In this document: in pieces, positions 9,003 to 49,949 of the stretch
Layout of the letters: the number at the start of each line of letters is the position of its first letter
How positions within the stretch are numbered: position 1 is the first letter of the stretch
Assembly: GCA_022647575.1 (NCBI GenBank)
Contig: JALCKY010000003.1
Location: forward strand, 311,902 to 375,901
DNA: 64,000 nt
Direction: 5' to 3'
Source: Lachnospiraceae bacterium
GTDB lineage: Bacteria; Bacillota; Clostridia; Lachnospirales; Lachnospiraceae
Program-made: the position numbers and the translations under genes
The notes under the pieces: model-generated
The model's input: only the letters and a program-made list of their open reading frames with translations
Database searches by the model: none
Told to the model about the DNA's origin: nothing

Positions 9003-10043
9003 TCAGGCTCCGAGGAGCGGCTGGTCAAAGGCAAAAAGCACTTCGTTGATGCGGAAGAGATCATAGTCTTTCTGTTCGATGAAATATTCGATGATGATGT
9101 CGGACTTACTGCTGTGCGACAGGGCATAGCCGGCCTTTTCCAGCATTTCCCTGGTCTCTTCCAGGTTCAGGGACAGGGCCAGGGCAAAGGCGACTGCCGT
9201 CTGCTTCGACGGGCGGTAATGCGGATCCGACCGGATTTTGGAAAACAGTTTGCGGTCGATGTTGGCTTTTTTGTAGCATTCCGCATCGGTCATTTTTTCT
9301 TCATCAATCTTGCGCAGCAGCATCCCGGAAAAGCTTTCATCCAGCCTGCTGATGCGCTCCTCCAGCTCATCGGCTGAGACATACTCCGCTTCCCGGATGT
9401 TCTCTTCCGGACTTTCTTCTTTCGATGCCTTCACCGCATAGGAGGCAAAGAGACGGAAGTGCTCCTCTTTCTGTCTCTGCTTCGGGCTTGTGCATCATAA
9501 AGCGTCGTATGCTGTCCGGCGTAGCGGTCATCAATATATTCCCGGACAGAGTCAAAGACTTTCGATCCGACGTCATAGGACGCGCGGTCGAAGATGACGA
9601 GATAAACCGTCATGTCCTCCTTTTCCAGGAAATGACGGATGGCATCGACCGCGACCTGCAGCGCCTCCTCCTTCGGATAGCCGTAAATGCCCGAAGAGAT
9701 CAGCGGAAAGGCAACGGTTTCACAGCCGTGTTCCTTTGCAAGTTCGAGCGATTTCCGATAGCAGGATGACAGCAGCTTCTCCTCGCCGTGCGTGCCGCCC
9801 CTCCAGATCAGGACCTACTGTATGAATCATATACCGGCACGGCAGACGGTATCCCTTCGTGATTTTAGCCTCGCCTGTCCTGCAGCCGTGCAGCTTCTCG
9901 CATTCCGCAAGAAGCTCCGGCCCGGCCGCCCGGTGGATGGCACCGTCCACGCCTCCGCCGCCGAGAAGAGATTCATTTGCCGCATTTACGACGGCATCGA
10001 CTTTCATTCGTGTAAGATCATTCCGAACAATGACAAACGGCAT
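9003..10043 (-). pseudogene. Macro-domain (ADP-ribose binding) protein, two frameshifts
   Basis: Three consecutive frames form one protein of about 346 codons. Part 1 (from 10043) has the macro-domain start [20 protein letters not shown] and the loop [19 protein letters not shown]. Near 9803-9809 the frame shifts by one base: [20 protein letters not shown] and ISSGIYGYPKEEAL continue in the next frame. Near 9480-9492 it shifts back, giving [13 protein letters not shown] and a helical C-terminal domain ([20 protein letters not shown]), an HTH-like region often fused to this macro domain. Catalytic-loop residues are otherwise intact. Macro domains remove or bind ADP-ribose. The damage is recent decay or sequence error. 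Confidence 0.75.
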
Positions 10044-11154: not shown

Positions 11155-11640
11155 ATGGCCAACAGCCCTTTCCGAAAAAAAAGTCTTGAAAAACTGAATG
11201 ATCCGGAGCAGCTGAATGATTATATCAGGGTAACCAATCCGGCTGTCTGGATGGTCCTTGCGCTGATCGGGCTTCTTCTTGCCCTGTTCATCCTCTGGGC
11301 CATTTACGGCGAAATCGATATTGAGGAAAAAACGGTCGTCGTCGCAAAGAACGGAGAATCCTGCGTCTACGTTTCCTCCGAATATGCCGGTCAGCTGCAT
11401 GCCGGCCTTCTGGTTGACGGTTTCACGACAGCGGTGAAGATTGTTTCCGTTCCCGCCGAACCGGTCCAGATCACAGCTTCCTTTAATGCAAATGCAAAGT
11501 CCATCGCGAACATGGAGAACGGGGATTATTATTACGCCTGCCCGATTGACTATGCCCTTGACAGTGACGGAATCTATCCCGTCACCGTTTATTTTGACCA
11601 GCTTTCGCCGATCTCGTATCTTTTCAGCAGGGGGGCCTGA
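11155..11640 (+). CDS. Short HlyD-like secretion protein of an NHLM-type system
   Basis: 161 residues. One N-terminal membrane helix (about 31-52, VWMVLALIGLLLALFILWAI) follows a cytosolic stretch that starts MANSPFRKKSLEKLNDPEQL, typical of NHLM bacteriocin-system membrane fusion proteins. The rest is a small extracytoplasmic beta-rich domain; no long coiled coil or lipoyl hairpin is visible, so it is a minimal form. It probably bridges the ABC exporters to the cell exterior. First gene of the cluster, with GAGGGGA before the ATG and a TATAAT promoter; 2 bases separate its stop from the next gene. Confidence 0.75.
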   Translation: MANSPFRKKSLEKLNDPEQLNDYIRVTNPAVWMVLALIGLLLALFILWAIYGEIDIEEKTVVVAKNGESCVYVSSEYAGQLHAGLLVDGFTTAVKIVSVPAEPVQITASFNANAKSIANMENGDYYYACPIDYALDSDGIYPVTVYFDQLSPISYLFSRGA

Positions 11641-11642
11641 CC

Positions 11643-13814
11643 ATGGCCGCCAAACACAGGGAACCGCTGCGGCACGGAATTGCCCATGTGCCGGTCGTGA
11701 TGCAGATGGAAGCACTGGAATGCGGTGCAGCCTCCCTCGGCATGATTCTTGCCTACTACGGACGGTGGGTGCCTCTGACGCAGCTGAGAAAAGACCTCGG
11801 TGTTTCCAGGAACGGCGCCAACGCCATGAATATCCTGGATGCCGCGAAGCTCTACGGGCTGAATTCAAAAGGCTACCGCTACGGGATTGAAAGCCTTCGG
11901 AAGAAAGGCACATTTCCGTGCATCATTCACTGGAACTTCTGCCACTTTCTCGTCCTGGACGGCTTCCGCGGAAATAAAGCCTATCTGAATGATCCGGCAG
12001 GCGGCTCGTATGCCGTTTCCATGGAGCAGTTTGATGAAGGCTATACCGGCATCTGTCTTTTCTTTGAACCCGGCGAAAAATTCCAGCCGGGCGGAAGGCA
12101 GACTTCCATCCTGGCTTTTGCAAAAGAACGCCTGAAGGGTTCGAAGACGGCCATCCTGTTTACGGTCTGCACGACGGTGCTTCTGTCCCTGCTGGGCATT
12201 TTCAGCCCGGTTTTCTCGCTTGTCTTTGTCGACAGCATTCTGGGAAGCGGCTATCAGCAGTGGCTGACGCCTCTCCTTCTGCTGCTTGCCGGCTTTGCCG
12301 TGTGTACCCTGACCGTCAGCCTGATTAAAACGATTTATTCCTATAAGATCAACGCGAAGTTCTCCGTCCTGGCAAATGCGAAATTCGAATGGCATCTCCT
12401 GCGGCTGCCCGTCGAATTCTTTTCGCAGCGGATGAGCGGCGATATCGAAACCACGCAGGAGAGCAATGAAAGCATTTCCAATACATTCATCCAGACCTTC
12501 GCGCCGCTGATCCTGAATCTGGCGCTGATGCTTCTGTATTTATTTGCCATGATCAATTACAGTCCGCTGATTGCCCTGATCGCCGTGGCGGCCGTCACCA
12601 TCAACCTGCTGGTTTCGCTTCAGCTGTCCAAAAAGAAAATCAATGTCACCAGGGTGCAGACGAATGCAAATGGCAAACTGAACGGAACGACCATCGCCGG
12701 CATCGAAATGGTGGAAACCATCAAGGCAAGCGGAGCCGAAAACGGCTTCTTTGAAAAATGGGCCGGCTATCAGGCCAAGGTCATTTCCCAGCAGCAGCAG
12801 TTCATCCGCCTGGAGAACGGCCTCGGGCTCGTACCGGAACTGGTCACCTCCCTGACCGGCAGCATTGTCCTGGCCGTCGGCGTCTACCTGTCTCTGCAGG
12901 GGAAATTCTCCCTCGGCATGATTGTCGCCTTCCAGGGATTCCTGATGGGCTTCATGACGCCTGCCTCCTCGATTATCAATGCGACAAAAACGGTCCAGGA
13001 AATGAGAACGAATATGGAGCGCGTCCAGGATATCATGGAATATCCTCCGGACGTCATCCCCGAGAAACTGGACAGCGGCGTCGTTTACGAAAAGCTGAGG
13101 GGCGACATCGAACTGAAAAATGTCACCTTCGGATATTCCCGGCTGGATCCGCCGCTGATCGAGAACCTCAGCCTGCACATCCTGCCAGGTCAGAAAATCG
13201 CCTTTGTCGGCGCTTCCGGCTGCGGCAAGTCCACCCTGACAAAGCTGATTTCCGGCTTATACCAGCCATGGAGCGGAGAAGTCCTGCTGGACGGGAAACC
13301 CCTGCAGGAGATCAGCCGGAGCGTCCTGACCGGATCAGTTGCCGTCGTCGAGCAGGACATCATGCTGTTCGAAGACTCCATCGCCGACAACATCCGGATG
13401 TGGGACAAAACCATCGAAAATTTTGACGTGATCCTGGCCGCCCGCGATGCCGATATCCATGAAGATATCATGCGCCGCACCGGCGGCTATGAATACCGCC
13501 TCTCCGAAGGAGGACGCAATTTCTCCGGCGGGCAGAGGCAGCGCCTGGAAATTGCCCGCGTGCTTGCACAGGATCCGACTATCATCATCATGGACGAGGC
13601 GACATCGGCACTGGATGCCAAAACGGAATACGATGTCGTCCGGAAGATTCAGGACAGGGGCATTACCGAAATCGTTATTGCACACCGTCTTTCCACGATC
13701 CGGGACTGCGATATCATTTACATGATGGACCGCGGCGTGATCACGGAACAGGGAACCCATGAGGAACTTTTTGCAAAAGGCGGTCTGTATACGCAGCTGA
13801 TATCCAGCGAATAA
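11643..13814 (+). CDS. Peptidase-containing ABC exporter (C39, NHLM ABC1 type)
   Basis: 723 residues in three domains. The N-terminal C39 cysteine peptidase (1-135) has catalytic Cys27 (ALECGAASLG), His101 (NFCHFLVLDG) and Asp117 (YLNDPAGG); this class cuts leaders after Gly-Gly. The membrane domain (about 150-445) has six predicted helices. The ATPase domain carries Walker A GASGCGKST (about 522-530), signature SGGQRQRLEIARVL and Walker B IIIMDEATSALD. It would remove the leader of the precursors at 17515 and 19906, both ending in SGGK(K)C, and export the product. Cotranscribed with its neighbours. Confidence 0.92.
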   Translation: MAAKHREPLRHGIAHVPVVMQMEALECGAASLGMILAYYGRWVPLTQLRKDLGVSRNGANAMNILDAAKLYGLNSKGYRYGIESLRKKGTFPCIIHWNFCHFLVLDGFRGNKAYLNDPAGGSYAVSMEQFDEGYTGICLFFEPGEKFQPGGRQTSILAFAKERLKGSKTAILFTVCTTVLLSLLGIFSPVFSLVFVDSILGSGYQQWLTPLLLLLAGFAVCTLTVSLIKTIYSYKINAKFSVLANAKFEWHLLRLPVEFFSQRMSGDIETTQESNESISNTFIQTFAPLILNLALMLLYLFAMINYSPLIALIAVAAVTINLLVSLQLSKKKINVTRVQTNANGKLNGTTIAGIEMVETIKASGAENGFFEKWAGYQAKVISQQQQFIRLENGLGLVPELVTSLTGSIVLAVGVYLSLQGKFSLGMIVAFQGFLMGFMTPASSIINATKTVQEMRTNMERVQDIMEYPPDVIPEKLDSGVVYEKLRGDIELKNVTFGYSRLDPPLIENLSLHILPGQKIAFVGASGCGKSTLTKLISGLYQPWSGEVLLDGKPLQEISRSVLTGSVAVVEQDIMLFEDSIADNIRMWDKTIENFDVILAARDADIHEDIMRRTGGYEYRLSEGGRNFSGGQRQRLEIARVLAQDPTIIIMDEATSALDAKTEYDVVRKIQDRGITEIVIAHRLSTIRDCDIIYMMDRGVITEQGTHEELFAKGGLYTQLISSE

Positions 13815-13828
13815 GGAGTCACGCGCAG

Positions 13829-16012
13829 ATGGGTTATTTTGATGAACAGATCAGACAGAAGGAAGAAAATGACGACCGGCGTTTTGAAGACGCTTTTATC
13901 GGTCTTGCTTCCGCTGTCATGGGCAGTCAGATTGCCGTCTCCGGGGATAACCGGGACTTCCAGATCCGGAATGCCTTTGACGACATTCTGCAGTATTATC
14001 ATGTCGAAAAATTCAAGCTCCCGGATAATCTGGATTCTTTCGACCATCAGCTGGATTCTTTCATCAGCCTGTCCGGACTGATGAAACGGACCGTGAAGCT
14101 GACAGACCGGTGGTACCGCAATGCCATCGGACCTTTTCTTGCTTTTTTCCGTGACTCGGACGGCGTGGTGACCCTGATGCCGGACCGGAACGGCTACAGC
14201 TACCGCGATTATGCAACCGGAAACCGGATCAAGATCACGAAGGAAAATGCAGGACAGTTCCGGACAGAGGCCTACTGTTTCTATAAGCCTTTTCCTTCCG
14301 TGAAAATGACAAAGAAAGACCTGCTGCGCTACATGGTTCAGATACTCACAAAAAACGACATCCGGAAAATCGTGCTGGTGCTGATTCTGATGGCTGTGGG
14401 CGGATTCGGCGGTCTGCTGGTCAATGAAGCTCTTGTCTACCAGACCCTGAGCAAGGCCAACCCCTACCTTTCGTATGTCTATATCATCGGCTCGCTGCTG
14501 ATCTGCGTCGTTTCCGTCATCCTTTTAAAATCGATTGCCCAGGCCCTGATCTCAAAAATCAAGACGCGGGTCGGGTCTGCTGTCCAGGCAGCTATCATGA
14601 TGAGGATTATTTCCCTGCCGACGGATTTCTTCCGCAGCTGCAGTTCCGGCGAGCTGGCGGGAAAGATTCACAGCGTCAGCAGTTTCTGTGATTCCGCCGC
14701 AGATACTTTTATCTTTGCTCTCCCGATGTTTTTCCTGACGCTTCTTTACGACGCCTATCTGCTTTCCGTCAAAAGCAGCATCGGCTGGCTGGTTCTTCTG
14801 GAAATGGCCGTCCTGCTTTCCCTGACTGCCATTGTCTATTTTTTCAATAAGAAATACATTGTCCGTAAAATTCAGGCTTCCTCGGTTTCAAGCGGCATGA
14901 ATCTCGGCATGATCAACGGCATCCAGAAAATCAAGCTGACAGGAGCGGAAAAACGGGCCTTTTCAAAATGGTCCGACACTTACCGGGAAAATGCGGAAAT
15001 TGCCTATAATCCTCCGCTGATCGTAAAGATTTCGGAAATCATTCCCGTCATCATTCCGCTGTTTTTCATTGTCCTTTATTATTATGTTTTTGCTGCGGAG
15101 TATACCTATGTCGGAAATTTCTATACCTATGAACTGGTCTATGATGCCGTCACTGCTGCGTTCATCGTGCTCTTCCGTCAGCTGATGAACTTCGCGGAAA
15201 GTTCTGCGGCCTATGAAACCATCAAGCCGGTATTCGAAACGGTGCCGGAAACTTCCGGGAAAAAACGGAACATTACGAAACTGAAAGGAAAAATTGAAAT
15301 CAGCCACGTTTCCTTCCGGTACAGCAAAGACATGCCCTATCTGTATGAGGATCTGAATCTTCAGATTAAACGCGGACAGTACGTTGCCATCGTCGGAAAA
15401 TCCGGATGCGGAAAATCCTCCCTGGTCCGGCTGCTGCTGGGATTCGAAAAACCGGAAAAAGGAGCCATTTACTACGACGGCGAAGATCTTTCGGAAATCA
15501 GCCTGCCTTCTCTCCGGCGGAGGATCGGCACCGTCATGCAGAATGCAAAACTGTTTACAGGAGACATCTACTACAACATCATCATTTCCGCACCATGGCT
15601 TAAAATGCAGGATGCCTGGGACGCGGCTGAAACCGCAGGCATTGCCGACGACATCCGGAAACTGCCCATGGGAATGCAGACACTGATGACCGAGGATCAG
15701 AGCGGACTGTCCGGCGGACAGAGGCAGCGGCTTGTCATTGCCCGTGCCATTGCGCAGAAGCCGAATATCCTGATCATGGATGAGGCGACTTCCGCACTGG
15801 ACAACGTCACGCAGAAAAAGATCGCGGATGCGCTGAGCGCTCTGCACTGCACCCGGATTGTCATCGCGCACCGGCTCTCGACCGTCAGAAACTGCGACCG
15901 CATCCTGGTACTGGATCAGGGAAAAATCGCGGAAGACGGGACCTATGAAGAACTGATTGAAAATAAGGGAATTTTTGCCGATCTGGTATCCAGACAGCAG
16001 ATAGGATTCTGA
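13829..16012 (+). CDS. Second ABC exporter of the RiPP cluster (NHLM ABC2 type, no peptidase)
   Basis: 727 residues. The N-terminal about 170 residues are a soluble domain without the Cys/His/Asp triad, corresponding to the degenerate N-terminal region of NHLM ABC2 proteins. Membrane helices occupy about 185-450 (LVLILMAVGGFGGLLVNEAL is one). The ATPase has Walker A GKSGCGKSS (about 522-530), signature SGGQRQRLVIARAI and Walker B ILIMDEATSALD. It probably forms a heterodimer with the peptidase-bearing exporter. It follows 14 bases after that gene with AAGGAG as ribosome binding site; its stop is one base before the ATG of the maturase. Confidence 0.9.
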   Translation: MGYFDEQIRQKEENDDRRFEDAFIGLASAVMGSQIAVSGDNRDFQIRNAFDDILQYYHVEKFKLPDNLDSFDHQLDSFISLSGLMKRTVKLTDRWYRNAIGPFLAFFRDSDGVVTLMPDRNGYSYRDYATGNRIKITKENAGQFRTEAYCFYKPFPSVKMTKKDLLRYMVQILTKNDIRKIVLVLILMAVGGFGGLLVNEALVYQTLSKANPYLSYVYIIGSLLICVVSVILLKSIAQALISKIKTRVGSAVQAAIMMRIISLPTDFFRSCSSGELAGKIHSVSSFCDSAADTFIFALPMFFLTLLYDAYLLSVKSSIGWLVLLEMAVLLSLTAIVYFFNKKYIVRKIQASSVSSGMNLGMINGIQKIKLTGAEKRAFSKWSDTYRENAEIAYNPPLIVKISEIIPVIIPLFFIVLYYYVFAAEYTYVGNFYTYELVYDAVTAAFIVLFRQLMNFAESSAAYETIKPVFETVPETSGKKRNITKLKGKIEISHVSFRYSKDMPYLYEDLNLQIKRGQYVAIVGKSGCGKSSLVRLLLGFEKPEKGAIYYDGEDLSEISLPSLRRRIGTVMQNAKLFTGDIYYNIIISAPWLKMQDAWDAAETAGIADDIRKLPMGMQTLMTEDQSGLSGGQRQRLVIARAIAQKPNILIMDEATSALDNVTQKKIADALSALHCTRIVIAHRLSTVRNCDRILVLDQGKIAEDGTYEELIENKGIFADLVSRQQIGF

Positions 16013-16013
16013 A

Positions 16014-17442
16014 ATGAAATACATTCTCTCAGATACGATTGCGCTTCGTTCCTGGCAGGGGATACCTCATGCCTACTATGAAAAAAACCAGAAGTTCGCC
16101 AAAGGCCTGACCCGCGACGAATTCCTGATGCTGCTTCGCTGCAACGGAAAAATCGAGCTGGAGGAAGATGAAGTCCTGCGCTCCCTTCTGGAAAAGAAAC
16201 TCTGCCGGCCGGCAGAGGACGGCGATGCACTGACCTCCTGGCAGAGGCTGAAGCTCTGCAGCAATCCTTATTTCCCGCGAATGTTCTGGTCGGTCACGGA
16301 CCGCTGCGGCTCGAACTGCCGGTACTGCTACAATGCTGCCGGAGCAGAATCACCGGTAAATGAATTCTCATGGGAAGAGTGCCGGAAACTGATTCAGGAG
16401 GCGGCAGAATGCGGTGTCCAGACCGTCAAGCTCTCCGGCGGCGAACCGTTCCTGCATCCGCATTTTACGGAGATCCTGCGGGAGATCCGGGCAGCCGGCA
16501 TGCAGGTTGACCGGATCTACACCTCCGGCGAAAACCTGACGCAGGAAATTCTTGATGAAATAAAAAACACGGAACAGCCTCCTGTCATAAAACTTTCCTT
16601 TGACGGACTGGGCTGTCAGGATCGCTGTCACGGCAGAGAAGGCGCGGAAAAAGAAGCGCTTGAAGCTATCCGGCTGTGCATGCAGAACGGAATCCGGGTG
16701 CAGGCTGTCATGAATCTGAACAGGACCAACCGGGATGCCCTGCTTCCCACGGCACTGTTTCTTCAGGAACCGGCATTGACACTCTCCAGATCACCCGCAC
16801 GACCGAATCCCCCCGCTGGAAGATGTGTGCGCTGAACGATTCCCTGGAGCCGGAAGAATACTATGACTGCCTGCTGAGATTTACCTCTGACTATCTGAAA
16901 AGCGGGGCAAAGATGCCGGTGGAAATCTGGAAATTCCTGAATCTGGATCCTGAGAAAATCAAAGAAGACCTGAAAAATAAAAGAAAAACAGCTGACGGAA
17001 ATACAGAACGCAGGGAAACGGACAGCCGGGCTGCGGATGACGGAGAAACCGGTTCAAAATACTTCGAAAGGAATTTTGTCTGTGCGGATAACCGGAATAT
17101 GATTTCCGTTTCTGCCGACGGCGAACTCTATCCCTGCATCACTATGACGGGACTGTTCCACGAAAAAGGCATTTCCTTCGGAAATGTCAAAAAGAACGGT
17201 CTGCAGACATATCTGCAGAGCGGGCCTTATCTGACGGAAGTATGCCGGACCCTCGGCGATTTCAAAAAGAGAATCCGGAATGCGGATCCTGCGGGTATTT
17301 CCCTTCCTGCGGCGGCGGATGCCCCGCAATTGCACTTGCACAGACCGGCAGCCTCCGGAACCGAAGTCTGGTCCAGTGCGTCTTTTATAAAAATCAAATC
17401 CCGGAAAGAATAAAAAAGATAATTGAAGAAATGAATTTGTAA
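16014..17442 (+). pseudogene. Radical SAM/SPASM peptide maturase, two single-base frameshifts
   Basis: Three successive frames give one enzyme of about 476 residues. Part 1 has an N-terminal RRE-like wing (about 1-85) and the [4Fe-4S] motif CGSNCRYC (Cys98, 102, 105), then KLSGGEPFLH and IKLSFDG. Near 16770-16773 one base is missing; the next frame continues GIDTLQITRTTESPRWKMC. Near 17264-17268 (an A5 run) another base is missing; the last frame has the SPASM cysteines ENPECGSCGYFPSCGGGCP. All catalytic motifs survive, so this is very recent decay, phase variation or sequence error. It would install a radical-based cross-link or epimerisation in the Nif11-type precursor next door. Confidence 0.8.
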
Positions 17443-17483
17443 ATACACATCAGAGATGATAAAATTTAAATGTCCGTTTAAAT
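17437..17483 (+). promoter_or_regulatory. Promoter and AT-rich dyad of the precursor gene
   Basis: TTGTAA (17437-17442), 17-base spacer, TAAAAT (17460-17465): a separate promoter for the precursor, as is common for RiPP substrates needed in excess. It overlaps ATTTAAA-N6-TTTAAAT (17464-17483), matching the dyad at 11091-11109. Confidence 0.5.
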
Positions 17484-17514
17484 CATGATGTAAAATCAGA
17501 ATGGAGGGTTCATA

Positions 17515-17733
17515 ATGGAACAAAATGAATTGATTGAAAAACTCACGAATAATACAGAATTTGTAAAAAAAGCTGCCTCCTGCAAAGACGCAGCTTCTCT
17601 GGCAGCACTTGCCAAGGAGAGCGGAGTCGAAATTCCCGGGGATCTGGCAGAAAAAATTCTCGGAATGCTCAATCCTGATGACGGCGAACTGAATATTGAT
17701 GAATTAAAATCAGTTTCCGGAGGCAAATGCTGA
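17515..17733 (+). CDS. Nif11-type RiPP precursor peptide with Gly-Gly-Lys-Cys end
   Basis: 72 residues with a GGAGGG site. The Nif11-like leader (ELIEKLTNNTEFVKKAAS, then SLAALAKESGVEIPGDLAE) ends in the processing motif LKSVSGG, leaving only Lys-Cys as core. The tail of the peptide at 19906 is parallel (LRAVSGGKKC), so the end is not an accidental truncation; the stop codon TGA is at 17731-17733. Expected partners are the adjacent radical SAM/SPASM enzyme and the C39 exporter, which cuts after Gly-Gly. The product may be a modified dipeptide, or the peptide may act as a scaffold onto whose C-terminal Cys something is built. One internal Cys lies in the leader (ASCKDA). Confidence 0.85.
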   Translation: MEQNELIEKLTNNTEFVKKAASCKDAASLAALAKESGVEIPGDLAEKILGMLNPDDGELNIDELKSVSGGKC

Positions 17734-17756
17734 TCCGGTTCTCAGAATTCTGCAAG

Positions 17757-17784
17757 GCTGCGCACACTGCGCAGCTTTTTTTTT
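17757..17784 (+). terminator. Terminator of the precursor gene
   Basis: Perfect 8-bp stem GCTGCGCA/TGCGCAGC, CAC loop, followed by nine T. It closes the RiPP cluster 24 bases after the precursor stop. Confidence 0.9.
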
Positions 17785-19803: not shown

Positions 19804-19844
19804 GCAAAAAAACACTCCCGCAAACTGACTTTGCAGGAGTGTTT
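19804..19844 (-). terminator. Terminator of the second RiPP precursor
   Basis: AAACACTCC-TGCAAA pairs with TTTGCGGGAGTGTTT on the reverse strand, followed by a T run. It separates the 19906 peptide from the polymerase operon, so the peptide is monocistronic. Confidence 0.8.
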
Positions 19845-19905: not shown

Positions 19906-20127
19906 TCAGCACTTTTTTCCGCCGGAAACAGCACGGAGAGCATCCGATCCCAGTTCTCCTTCTGACTGTTCAAGAACGGAGATAGCTTCCTTTGCCTCAT
20001 CTTCTGTGATTTCCACGCCCTTTTCTTTTGCAAATGCAATCATTGCTGCCGGGTCTTTGATGGCAGAAGCTGCATCGATAACAGCCGGGTCCTCTGTAAG
20101 TTTTTCAATCAGCTCTTCTTTTGACAT
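19906..20127 (-). CDS. Second Nif11-type precursor with Gly-Gly-Lys-Lys-Cys end
   Basis: 73 residues from the ATG at 20127, which has GAAGGGAG 8 bases upstream; an in-frame GTG at 20136 abuts that site and is unlikely. The leader (SKEELIEKLTEDPAV, then MIAFAKEKGVEITEDEAKEA) and the tail GELGSDALRAVSGGKKC align with the 17515 peptide: same ELIEKLT start, same VSGGK(K)C end. It is unlinked to a maturase of its own, with its own promoter and terminator, so it probably uses the nearby maturase/exporter. There is no Cys in the leader; the only Cys is the final residue. Confidence 0.8.
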   Translation of the reverse strand: MSKEELIEKLTEDPAVIDAASAIKDPAAMIAFAKEKGVEITEDEAKEAISVLEQSEGELGSDALRAVSGGKKC

Positions 20128-20171
20128 CGCAATCACTCCCTTCTATAAAAAATTGATATCAAAAGAATAAC

Positions 20172-20949: not shown

Positions 20950-22002
20950 TCAGATATGCTGATGCTTCAGATAATACCGGCAGAAAGTATTCCAGAAATC
21001 CTGTATTCCTTTGCTGTTGACAACATTCGCTGCAGAATAATCCATGGCCAGAGTCATGTGTTTCGGATAGGAGGCAATATAGACATTTTCCCAGGATGTC
21101 GGTGCAAACTTGGCCTTGGCTGCGTAAAGCGCCTTGAAGTCATAAATCCGGTCCATTTTCTCATAATTAAAATGTTCCAGTTTCTCGAAATTGCTGCATC
21201 CGGGAACATTCGTATGCAGCAGCGGAGCAACGCCCAGGCTTCCCCATTGAATGCCTTCTGATTTGAATTTTTCGACAGCATCGCAGAAAATCAGTTCAAG
21301 GACTCCGTGGGAAGAACCCGGACGGCGTCTTGTAATGTCGGCAATATAGCCATGCCCGTGCCTGTAGGGATTGAAGACCATAAATCCCTGCATGACATTT
21401 TCCCGGTCGACCGTATAGAAATATCGTTTATCCGCAGGATAATCCAGATCAAGACTTCCTACGGCAAACTGCAGCATGCCGGTATGTTTTCTGCTGAGCC
21501 AGGCCGCTGTAATTTCCTGAAAATTCTTTTCTATCGAAGGATCTCTTTGTCTTTCAGGACAGTATTCATGAACGGTTAATCCATCTCTCCGGGCCTGATG
21601 AACGGACGCTCTGACTTTTGCCGCTTTCTTGCCGCTCATCTGATAAAGAGAAAGATCAAAGACTGCTTCCTCCCCGCTTTTGTATACATAGAAGCCGTTT
21701 GCCCTGTAGACATCCAGAAAGTCCTCCATGACAAAAAGAAAGATCAGCCGGTAATGATTCTTTTTGGCGTAAAGCATCAGTTCCTTGAGAAATGAACCTA
21801 TTTCTTCCGGTGCACATACAGGATCGCCGCAAATGACCATATCCCTTCCCGACATGGCATAGGCAGCAGCTCCTTCTGTCCCGGAAGAAAAGAACCATGA
21901 TTTATCTTCTTCAAGATCCAGATACGATATGGAATTGACGGCATATTTCCGAAGCAGAAGGAGAACCCTTTCCTTCTCTTTCAGCCTGTCTTCCTGATCC
22001 AT
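20950..22002 (-). CDS. DUF2156/MprF C-terminal-like aminoacyl transfer protein, soluble
   Basis: 350 residues matching the two-lobed GNAT domain found at the C-terminus of phosphatidylglycerol lysyltransferase: YAMSGRDMVICGDPVCAPEE (about 47-66), VRASVHQARRDGLTVHEY (about 127-144) and RYFYTVDRENVMQGFMVFNP. The membrane flippase domain of MprF is absent, so it is a free cytosolic enzyme or acts with a separate membrane partner. Known relatives transfer amino acids from aminoacyl-tRNA to lipids; the substrate here is unknown. It lies 8 bases after the MBL hydrolase in an operon that begins with the GPH symporter. Confidence 0.75.
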   Translation of the reverse strand: MDQEDRLKEKERVLLLLRKYAVNSISYLDLEEDKSWFFSSGTEGAAAYAMSGRDMVICGDPVCAPEEIGSFLKELMLYAKKNHYRLIFLFVMEDFLDVYRANGFYVYKSGEEAVFDLSLYQMSGKKAAKVRASVHQARRDGLTVHEYCPERQRDPSIEKNFQEITAAWLSRKHTGMLQFAVGSLDLDYPADKRYFYTVDRENVMQGFMVFNPYRHGHGYIADITRRRPGSSHGVLELIFCDAVEKFKSEGIQWGSLGVAPLLHTNVPGCSNFEKLEHFNYEKMDRIYDFKALYAAKAKFAPTSWENVYIASYPKHMTLAMDYSAANVVNSKGIQDFWNTFCRYYLKHQHI

Positions 22003-26141: not shown

Positions 26142-26210
26142 AGACTTGTGCTGCCGTGATGATTCACTGCAGCTGCAGCGATTTCAAATTCAACTTATGA
26201 GGAGGGTATC

Positions 26211-26405
26211 ATGAAATTAGATGAATTTATGAAAACAAACATGCTGAACAAAGAAGTTCGGGATGCATTTGAAAAGGCAGCGGGTGAGGGCAAGCTGGAA
26301 GATTTCTTCAAATCACTTGGCGTCGAAGCAACAAAAGAAGACGCAGAAGCTTTTACAAAACAGCTCGAAAGCCTGAAGCAGGAATTCGGCAAAGATCAGA
26401 AATAA
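26211..26405 (+). CDS. Nif11-like small peptide lacking a Gly-Gly site
   Basis: 64 residues with a GGAGGG site. The pattern MKLDEFMKTNMLNKEVRDAF, then FFKSLGVEATKEDAEAF is Nif11/leader-like (short helix, basic region, Gly-Val/Ile turn), comparable to the 17515 and 19906 peptides, but it has no VSGG and no Cys, ending QEFGKDQK. It is either a leader without a core, a regulator/decoy that binds the same maturase, or an unrelated small helical protein. Monocistronic, with a terminator right after it. Confidence 0.6.
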   Translation: MKLDEFMKTNMLNKEVRDAFEKAAGEGKLEDFFKSLGVEATKEDAEAFTKQLESLKQEFGKDQK

Positions 26406-48588: not shown

Positions 48589-49903
48589 TCAGTTCCGCAC
48601 CGCCGGCAGCTTTTCGATATGCGTCACGGCAATCGCCGCGCCGATTGCTGCCGAAATGGCTGCAATCAGGAGCATCTGTTTGGCACCGAGCGAGTCCAGA
48701 AGGAATCCGCCGGCAAATGAAGAAAGGATATTTCCGCAAGTCATGGCAATGACCGCAAAGGTCTGCCCCTTCGTGCGGTTGCGTTCCTCAATCAGCATTT
48801 TCGTATAATAGACGCTGGCCGGAATAAAAATCGCGTAGGAAACAATCTCAAATGACTGCGCGAACAGAATCATTCCCACCGAAGACGCGGCATACGTCAG
48901 GAAATGTTTGACAACAAACATGATGCAGGCGAAGGCCATGATCTTCTCGCACGGAATCCGCTTAATGATTTTAATGAAGAAAAACATGATCGGCACTTCG
49001 ATGATCGACGCATAGAAAATCGCCAGTCCCATGTCTTTGCTGCTTCCGCCGACGCTCTTCTCGATCTGTAGGAAATAAGTGTTCAGGGTCAGATGACTGA
49101 AGAAAATGAACATGACTCCGATCTGCAGAATCATGAATTTCTTATGTCCCAGGATGAAATCCTTCAGACTGTCGGCCTTGGAATCTTCCTTCGCAGATGT
49201 CTGCAGTTGATCCGCTGTCGAAATGTCCGACACCTGTGCATTCTGTTCTGCTGCCGAATTTACCGGCTCCGCATTTTCCGCCGCACCTGTCTTCGGCCGC
49301 ACCTGTTTCCGCGCCTGTCGCCGGCATTTTCCCCGCTGCCGATTTCATATAAAGCAGCGTCGCGACAGTCAGCAGCACCGCCTGAGCAGCAGCCACATAC
49401 GGCAGGAGATTCGGGCTGTAAATTTCCACAAGATAGCCCAAAAGCAGTGCGGAAATGGCATACGTAACCGATCCCATGCCGCGGCCCAGACCGAAATTGA
49501 TGGTATATCCTTCTTTTTCATGATCGAAGGCCAATGCGTTGTTAAATGGCTGCAGGGCAGTCGAAGCCGTGATTACGGCGATTTCAAGCAGGATAAAAAC
49601 AGGCGATGCCTGCAGAAGAAAGCACAGGATCAGGGAACAGATTCCAGCTATAGCGGTAAGGATGAGGGACATTTTCCCATTTGTCAGTGTCCTGCTTTTG
49701 TCGACGCGGGAGCCGAGCAGAGGCTGCGCAAATGCCGCCGCAATCTGCGCCGACGCCATGAGAATGCCGATCTGCGTATTGCCGATTCCGCGGTTCAGAA
49801 GGTATACTGACGTAAAGGAAACAACCGGGCAGTACATTGCCCAGAACAGTCCCGCCACGCAGGCATACAGAATATTCAGTTTGACGGCTGTAGGTTTCTG
49901 CAT
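48589..49903 (-). pseudogene. MFS transporter (MFS_1-like/NHS type), one frameshift
   Basis: Two frames form one 12-helix transporter of about 437 residues. The first (from 49903) starts MQKPTAVKLNILYACVAGLF and contains GIGNTQIGILMASAQIAAAF and the loop GSRVDKSRTLTNGK. Near 49295 one extra base in a GC-rich stretch (GCGGCCGAAGACAGGTGCGG on the reverse strand) moves the rest to a second frame with FILGHKKFMILQIGVMFIFF and IPASVYYTKMLIEERNRTKG. The break is in the non-membrane central loop between the two six-helix halves. Otherwise well preserved. Substrate could be sugars or nucleosides. Confidence 0.75.
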
Positions 49904-49949
49904 TATCGTTTTACTATACTATATCGCAGGCAAACTGGAAAGGCTGAAA

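Follow-up and report, generated by a model that had tools for sequence, protein, structure and literature searches.

We report that the genome of a Lachnospiraceae bacterium encodes a Nif11-like precursor peptide with only Lys-Cys after its Gly-Gly motif, in a RiPP-type locus lying within a 64,000-nucleotide stretch of DNA that we analysed as a whole (the window). The short tail, of two to three residues, is genuine, and a minimal Lys-Cys core that gives rise to a modified product is the explanation we consider most likely, albeit one that we hold tentatively rather than firmly. We picture a Nif11 RiPP locus that would work much as NHLM systems do, with a core shrunk to Lys-Cys or Lys-Lys-Cys: a radical SAM/SPASM maturase would bind the leader and modify the Lys or Cys at its C-terminus (one guess is a bond between the Cys sulfur and Lys), an exporter's C39 domain would cleave behind Gly-Gly, and what is released, a small product made from Lys-Cys, would be exported in its modified form. 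Such a maturase could be active only if the frameshifts in its gene are assembly errors or are bypassed.

Precursor peptides ending in Lys-Cys

The precursor (17515-17733, forward strand, 72 amino acids) has the C-terminus DELKSVSGGKC, with the Lys and Cys codons at 17725-17730 and the stop codon at 17731-17733, just as the first-pass annotation of this DNA had described it: a Nif11-like leader that closes on VSGG and is followed by Lys-Cys only. It scores 25.8 bits against TIGR03798, below the cut-off of 32.3. A second Nif11 precursor (19906-20136, reverse strand; 42.0 bits, above the same cut-off) ends in VSGG-Lys-Lys-Cys (GGKKC) and has an internal ATG three codons in, at 20127, and a third KC paralogue, which lies outside the window in the source genome, ends in GGGAGMKC. 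The other two paralogues share 47% and 36% identity with the 17515-17733 peptide, and the alignment of all three has 19 invariant columns, those of G, G, K and C included. Because the KC end is common to all three paralogues, a single-gene error is an unlikely source of it; being paralogues, they do not represent independent events. From the residue frequencies of nine window genes, a C-terminal KC would arise by chance with a probability of ~5e-4. The strongest sign that this end is of importance is its conservation, with Gly-Gly, in three diverged paralogues, and the retention of both G-G and K-C at 36-47% leader identity counts in favor of the minimal core.

Downstream of the 17515-17733 stop there is little room for further coding sequence, because a terminator-like stem-loop followed by a T-run (17754-17778, forward strand) starts 20 bases 3' of it; the 64-base stretch that holds this stem-loop folds with a z of -2.56. 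The second precursor is likewise followed by a terminator-like hairpin and T-run (19806-19843, reverse strand; fold z -6.95), which was missed by the terminator scan and spotted by eye, and the third KC gene by a weaker hairpin (z -1.31; 22/200 shuffles equally good). These hairpins, good after the first two genes and weak after the third, also argue for the minimal core. A weak promoter-like site (17437-17465, forward strand, 9/12) lies 5' of the first precursor, in a region with five such sites vs. 2.7 in shuffles. Near the GGKKC peptide, positions 20950-22002 of the window encode a protein with a phosphatidylglycerol lysyltransferase C-terminal domain (PF09924), which is probably unrelated to it.

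A family search of the source genome returned six Nif11 peptides, to which a KC-peptide profile contributed two more. After the cleavage motif, their tails read KC, KKC, GAGMKC, CQIAPKLVPLR, GGTSPDVVIPNQPDDC, NNNVFMLFTAKLFCANH and, in one case, 31 residues (11-31 residues in the four motif-bearing peptides without KC), and in the eighth gene (contig C5) the leader is interrupted. The KC end thus occurs in 3/7 motif-bearing Nif11 peptides of the source genome vs. 0/78 from other genomes, where the 78 are those with a recognised cleavage motif and 8/86 peptides were left out because theirs was unrecognised. Among the peptides outside the 78 is a Nif11-like peptide near an NHLM exporter (genome G154, L034 1387-1725), which ends in AKC with a 37-residue tail after IAAG, a sequence that the motif pattern does not recognise. 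Two tails among the 78 are equally short, with 0 (L137) and 4 residues (L229); by its sequence, the L229 peptide may be no precursor. The L137 gene (6590-6841) belongs to an NHLM operon, stops directly after Gly-Gly and, by eye, is followed by hairpin-like sequence and a T-run.

The L137 gene may indicate that near-zero-length cores exist elsewhere, and it helps the minimal-core reading no more than it helps an explanation that we rank third and regard as unlikely, namely that the peptides are leader-only or nearly so, the Nif11 part itself being the product (a decoy, a regulator or a partner of the exporter) and the maturase, if active, serving precursors scattered through the genome. The four other motif-bearing peptides with their tails of 11-31 residues, the presence of at least three NHLM exporters in the source genome and the lack there of a second gene of the maturase clade (the sole other match had an E of 4.7e-7 over 86 residues) are consistent with such an arrangement. 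However, the KC peptide is the one that adjoins the maturase, and a functionless tail would not be expected to retain K-C in three paralogues. As separate observations, the window also encodes a small Nif11-like protein that lacks a Gly-Gly end (26163-26405), and on contig C4 of the source genome a cold-shock domain is twice found joined to a double-glycine leader (LSDEDLEGVSGG and similar; L070 5855-6097 and 6757-7002; PF00313 at 35.3 bits, above the cut-off of 27, in one copy and below it in the other).

Export genes, leader cleavage and known systems

The HlyD-like gene, the C39 exporter, the second ABC gene, the maturase pieces and the 17515-17733 peptide are all encoded in the same direction, and the three export components that the first-pass annotation had named were all recovered. 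The first exporter (11643-13814, forward strand, 723 amino acids) carries an N-terminal C39 peptidase (PF03412, 109 bits) and is clearly of the NHLM type (TIGR03796, 900.9 bits, above the cut-off of 853.3). The second, NHLM-like ABC exporter (13829-16012, forward strand, 727 amino acids) has TIGR03797 as its best match, though below the cut-off (614.6 vs. 709.4 bits), and occupies the operon position seen in other fetched loci. The short HlyD-type adaptor (11155-11640, forward strand, 161 amino acids) matches TIGR03794 over positions 1-71 of 421, at 30.6 bits against a cut-off of 156.2. Where loci held an HlyD-like match, the best match was ~125-173 amino acids in 25/45 (lengths approximate), and we rejected the idea that the short HlyD is a sign of decay because this form is the commonest. 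Given an HlyD below its cut-off and a short form that is common, our claim is that the locus works like NHLM systems, not that it is formally a member.

The accessible text on the NHLM/Nif11 (N11P) systems (PMC2887384) describes the same combination of a Nif11-type Gly-Gly leader, a TIGR03796 exporter, a second ABC protein and an HlyD-type adaptor in one operon; the present locus differs in its core of 2-3 residues and in an HlyD far below the TIGR03794 cut-off. Closer to the host, the Lachnospiraceae lah cluster with LahT, as presented in the available portion of PMC6363468, shares Nif11 leaders, a C39 exporter and recognition through Leu-12, Leu-7, Val-4 and Gly-Gly. For LahT substrates, that portion reports that changes at Leu-7 or Leu-12, or a charge at -4 before Gly-Gly, impair cleavage, and that cleavage took place on a synthetic substrate whose tail has four residues, the shortest cleaved tail given there (PMC6363468). 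That this is longer than the two-residue tail of the 17515-17733 peptide counts against the minimal core. Leu-12, Leu-7 and Val-4 are present in all three KC peptides, and this retention of the LahT recognition positions counts for the minimal-core reading. The lah cluster, however, is described there as a lanthipeptide operon with nine precursors and diverse cores (PMC6363468), whereas the source genome is without a LanC-like match. Because the LanC-like domain PF05147 gave 0 matches in the source genome while a control genome was positive, we rejected a lanthipeptide route for this organism.

In mycofactocin, radical SAM/SPASM maturation is confined to the C-terminal dipeptide. The present locus resembles it in that a radical SAM/SPASM enzyme would act at a very short C-terminal segment, and differs in that the first maturase piece scores 46.5 bits against TIGR03962 (cut-off 265) and in having a Nif11 leader and a C39 exporter. 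A further comparison is with the pearlins, 3-thia-amino acids, for which the accessible part of PMC9303977 describes a small product made at the C-terminal Cys of a carrier peptide. We considered it very unlikely that the KC peptides are carriers of this sort, on which an encoded C-terminal Cys would be elaborated into a small molecule that is then set free. Cys does end all three short tails, and the same source describes TmoHI activity on a laboratory construct, a carrier peptide whose C-terminal Cys was genetically encoded (PMC9303977). However, unlike the pearlin system as described there (PMC9303977), the source genome yielded no TglH-type gene (DUF692/MNIO, PF05114, 0 matches; control positive), and a search of it for the PEARL domain (PF04738-type) was empty too, though the control genomes were also all silent. 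The lack of a LanC-like or TglH-like domain in the source genome favors the minimal-core reading.

A split maturase from a clade with longer cores

The adjoining radical SAM/SPASM enzyme proposed by the first-pass annotation exists as a gene of that kind, though not as a single intact reading frame: compared with the intact enzyme of locus L112, the gene has two frameshifts and occupies three overlapping frames. Piece 1 (16014-16835, forward strand) encodes the N-terminal domain and the radical SAM core (PF04055), loses frame near its end and is 50% identical to L112 residues 1-255; piece 2 (16676-17413, forward strand; matching part from ~16772) encodes the first SPASM part (PF13186; 39%, residues 254-399); and piece 3 (17242-17442, forward strand), which ends 72 bases before the start of the 17515 precursor, encodes the last SPASM cysteines (TIGR04085, 30.3 bits, above the cut-off of 27; 29%, residues 397-452). 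By eye, the CX3CX2C radical SAM motif and the SPASM cysteines remain legible across the three frames, an alignment of five members places GGEP and the radical SAM cysteines among the retained features, and the codon scores of pieces 1 and 2 are of the coding type (piece 1 may have been in the training set). The place of the gene just before the precursor, the legible cysteines and the codon scores count for the minimal core.

The two frameshifts count against the minimal-core reading and favor an explanation that we rank second and consider fairly improbable, that longer Cys-rich cores were truncated to leave the KC peptides and that the maturase is being lost. In the same window, an MFS transporter gene (48589-49918) is split into two frames like the maturase (one piece matches PF12832 at 10-175 and the other at 202-369; both match the first half of PF07690), which makes assembly errors possible and, together with the retained cysteines and coding-type scores of the maturase pieces, speaks against decay. 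Elsewhere in the window, a macro-domain gene (9431-10043) also appears split, with Pfam matching the first piece only. The split genes in the window may reflect either assembly indels or the decay of several genes. Further in favor of decay are the interrupted leader of another Nif11 gene of the source genome and the cores of locus L064, three of four of which contain Lys-Cys-Pro-x-Cys, where a stop would give a KC end; against it stand three separate KC genes with intact leaders, two of them with clear terminators.

Used alone as a query in a first scan of genome contigs, the window maturase piece found no relative; with a five-member alignment as the query, a scan of species genomes gave 431 relatives, of which the best 80 were taken. 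Our clade set comprised the best 20 of the 431 (by identity and coverage) plus four more loci, 24 in all. The best 20 are mostly Bacillota, with single records in Bacteroidota, Actinomycetota and Spirochaetota, and are all metagenome bins by their titles. An intact member, L144, has a fold like the characterised enzymes SuiB and SkfB, which counts for the minimal-core reading. The L157 enzyme is itself split over two frames, and for four intact relatives none of the best 25 NCBIfam families reached its cut-off.

Nif11 peptides occur within 4 kb of the maturase in 15/24 loci of this set, the other nine having no Nif11 match at that distance, some because of contig ends. The 31 peptides so found have cores of 14-104 residues (the core of L154 is over-counted by ~16 residues because the cleavage pattern matched early, and the L148 match is weak, E 0.017); 29 contain Cys, 21 at least four Cys and 15 at least two CxxC pairs. 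Beyond 4 kb, the Nif11 peptides of L162 (a weak match at 4.04 kb), L112 and L161 have tails of 12, 18 and 22 residues, respectively. Longer cores in homologues, by which the first-pass annotation would have recognised the stop as a local truncation, are therefore largely what is seen between species, and they count against the minimal core and for decay, within this set of the best 20 of 431 and four further loci.

Some of these cores resemble zinc ribbons (CPxCG...CxxC; L064 10446-11863, L144, L145, L147, L148 and L160). Of ten proteins scanned, several match zinc-ribbon models of Pfam, all below the cut-offs, and a Nif11 protein with a zinc ribbon was not found in the literature searched. 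In four loci of the set (L112 13426-18014, L152, L162 and L031), and beside a same-genus relative of the maturase (G028), a LanM or LanM-type gene adjoins the clade enzyme; in L112 the genes in a row are those for the two exporters, a Nif11 peptide whose core is 29 residues long, LanM and the maturase. The pairing in these four loci suggests doubly modified lanthipeptides.

In a tree of 17 of the 20 loci, four more and the window piece, good support falls on 6/19 inner branches, and the window enzyme is without firm placement. Over its first 248 residues, the window maturase has an end branch of 1.4 against a median of 0.31 (three other rows reach 2.7-2.84), and it has changed 8/33 columns that are invariant in 14 relatives, including three around the radical SAM motif; leaving out one relative at a time gave 0-3 changes in 12/14 relatives, 5 in L152 and 13 in L161. 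This divergence would fit a new substrate and relaxed selection equally: the changed columns are as an altered substrate would predict, which favors the minimal core, and the same columns with the long branch may equally reflect relaxed selection, which counts against it. The long branch, with the frameshifts, also counts for decay.

Rarity of the Lys-Cys end and what it may mean

The first-pass annotation had asked whether homologues all end in GGKC or GGKKC beside this maturase, and outside the source genome they do not. A short GG-Lys-Cys Nif11 end was found nowhere besides the source genome among 397 family, 391 class and 398 phylum genomes (overlapping samples), which counts against the minimal core. 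A DNA pattern for the GGKC end, which also allows TGG in place of the stop (5/17 places read TGG), hit 17 places in 16/397 family genomes, source genome included, vs. 8 control places, and by eye a Nif11 leader precedes only the place in the source genome. A stricter pattern hit 18 places in 17/398 phylum genomes, source genome included, vs. ~28 control places, the other 17 having no Nif11 leader by eye. In the class sample, the three-peptide KC profile matched in 11/391 genomes, source genome included, with no KC end among the tails read outside it (at least L230 and L233 yielded no peptide). Within the genus, 4/42 genomes, again including the source, have any TIGR03798 match. We therefore rejected a widespread GGKC family, as the family, class and phylum samples held no further Nif11-led GGKC end. 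No exact copy of the tail was found in viral contigs; plasmids gave no DNA match, and plasmid protein matches to the L112 enzyme were all below 60% identity. The titles and abstracts searched, with subscription papers mostly out of reach, report no Nif11 core of such shortness.

Taken to the product, the earlier proposal of a modified Lys-Cys dipeptide is supported in part, in that KC recurs, the C39 recognition positions are kept and the neighbour is a RiPP-type SPASM enzyme, and is weakened in that the maturase is frameshifted and the clade cores are longer. We give rather low credence to a fuller account, in which a clade enzyme that elsewhere accompanies long Cys-rich or zinc-ribbon-like cores would have been retuned to a core of 2-3 residues, with the C39 exporter releasing a modified Lys-Cys dipeptide. 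If decay is instead the cause, the three shared KC ends would still call for explanation. If the minimal-core reading is true, the locus would take a double-glycine RiPP down to about the smallest core possible and would exemplify a maturase clade switching substrate size. Should the KC tail be modified and exported, the double-glycine route would deliver dipeptide-sized molecules as well, products that mining rules built on long hypervariable cores would overlook.
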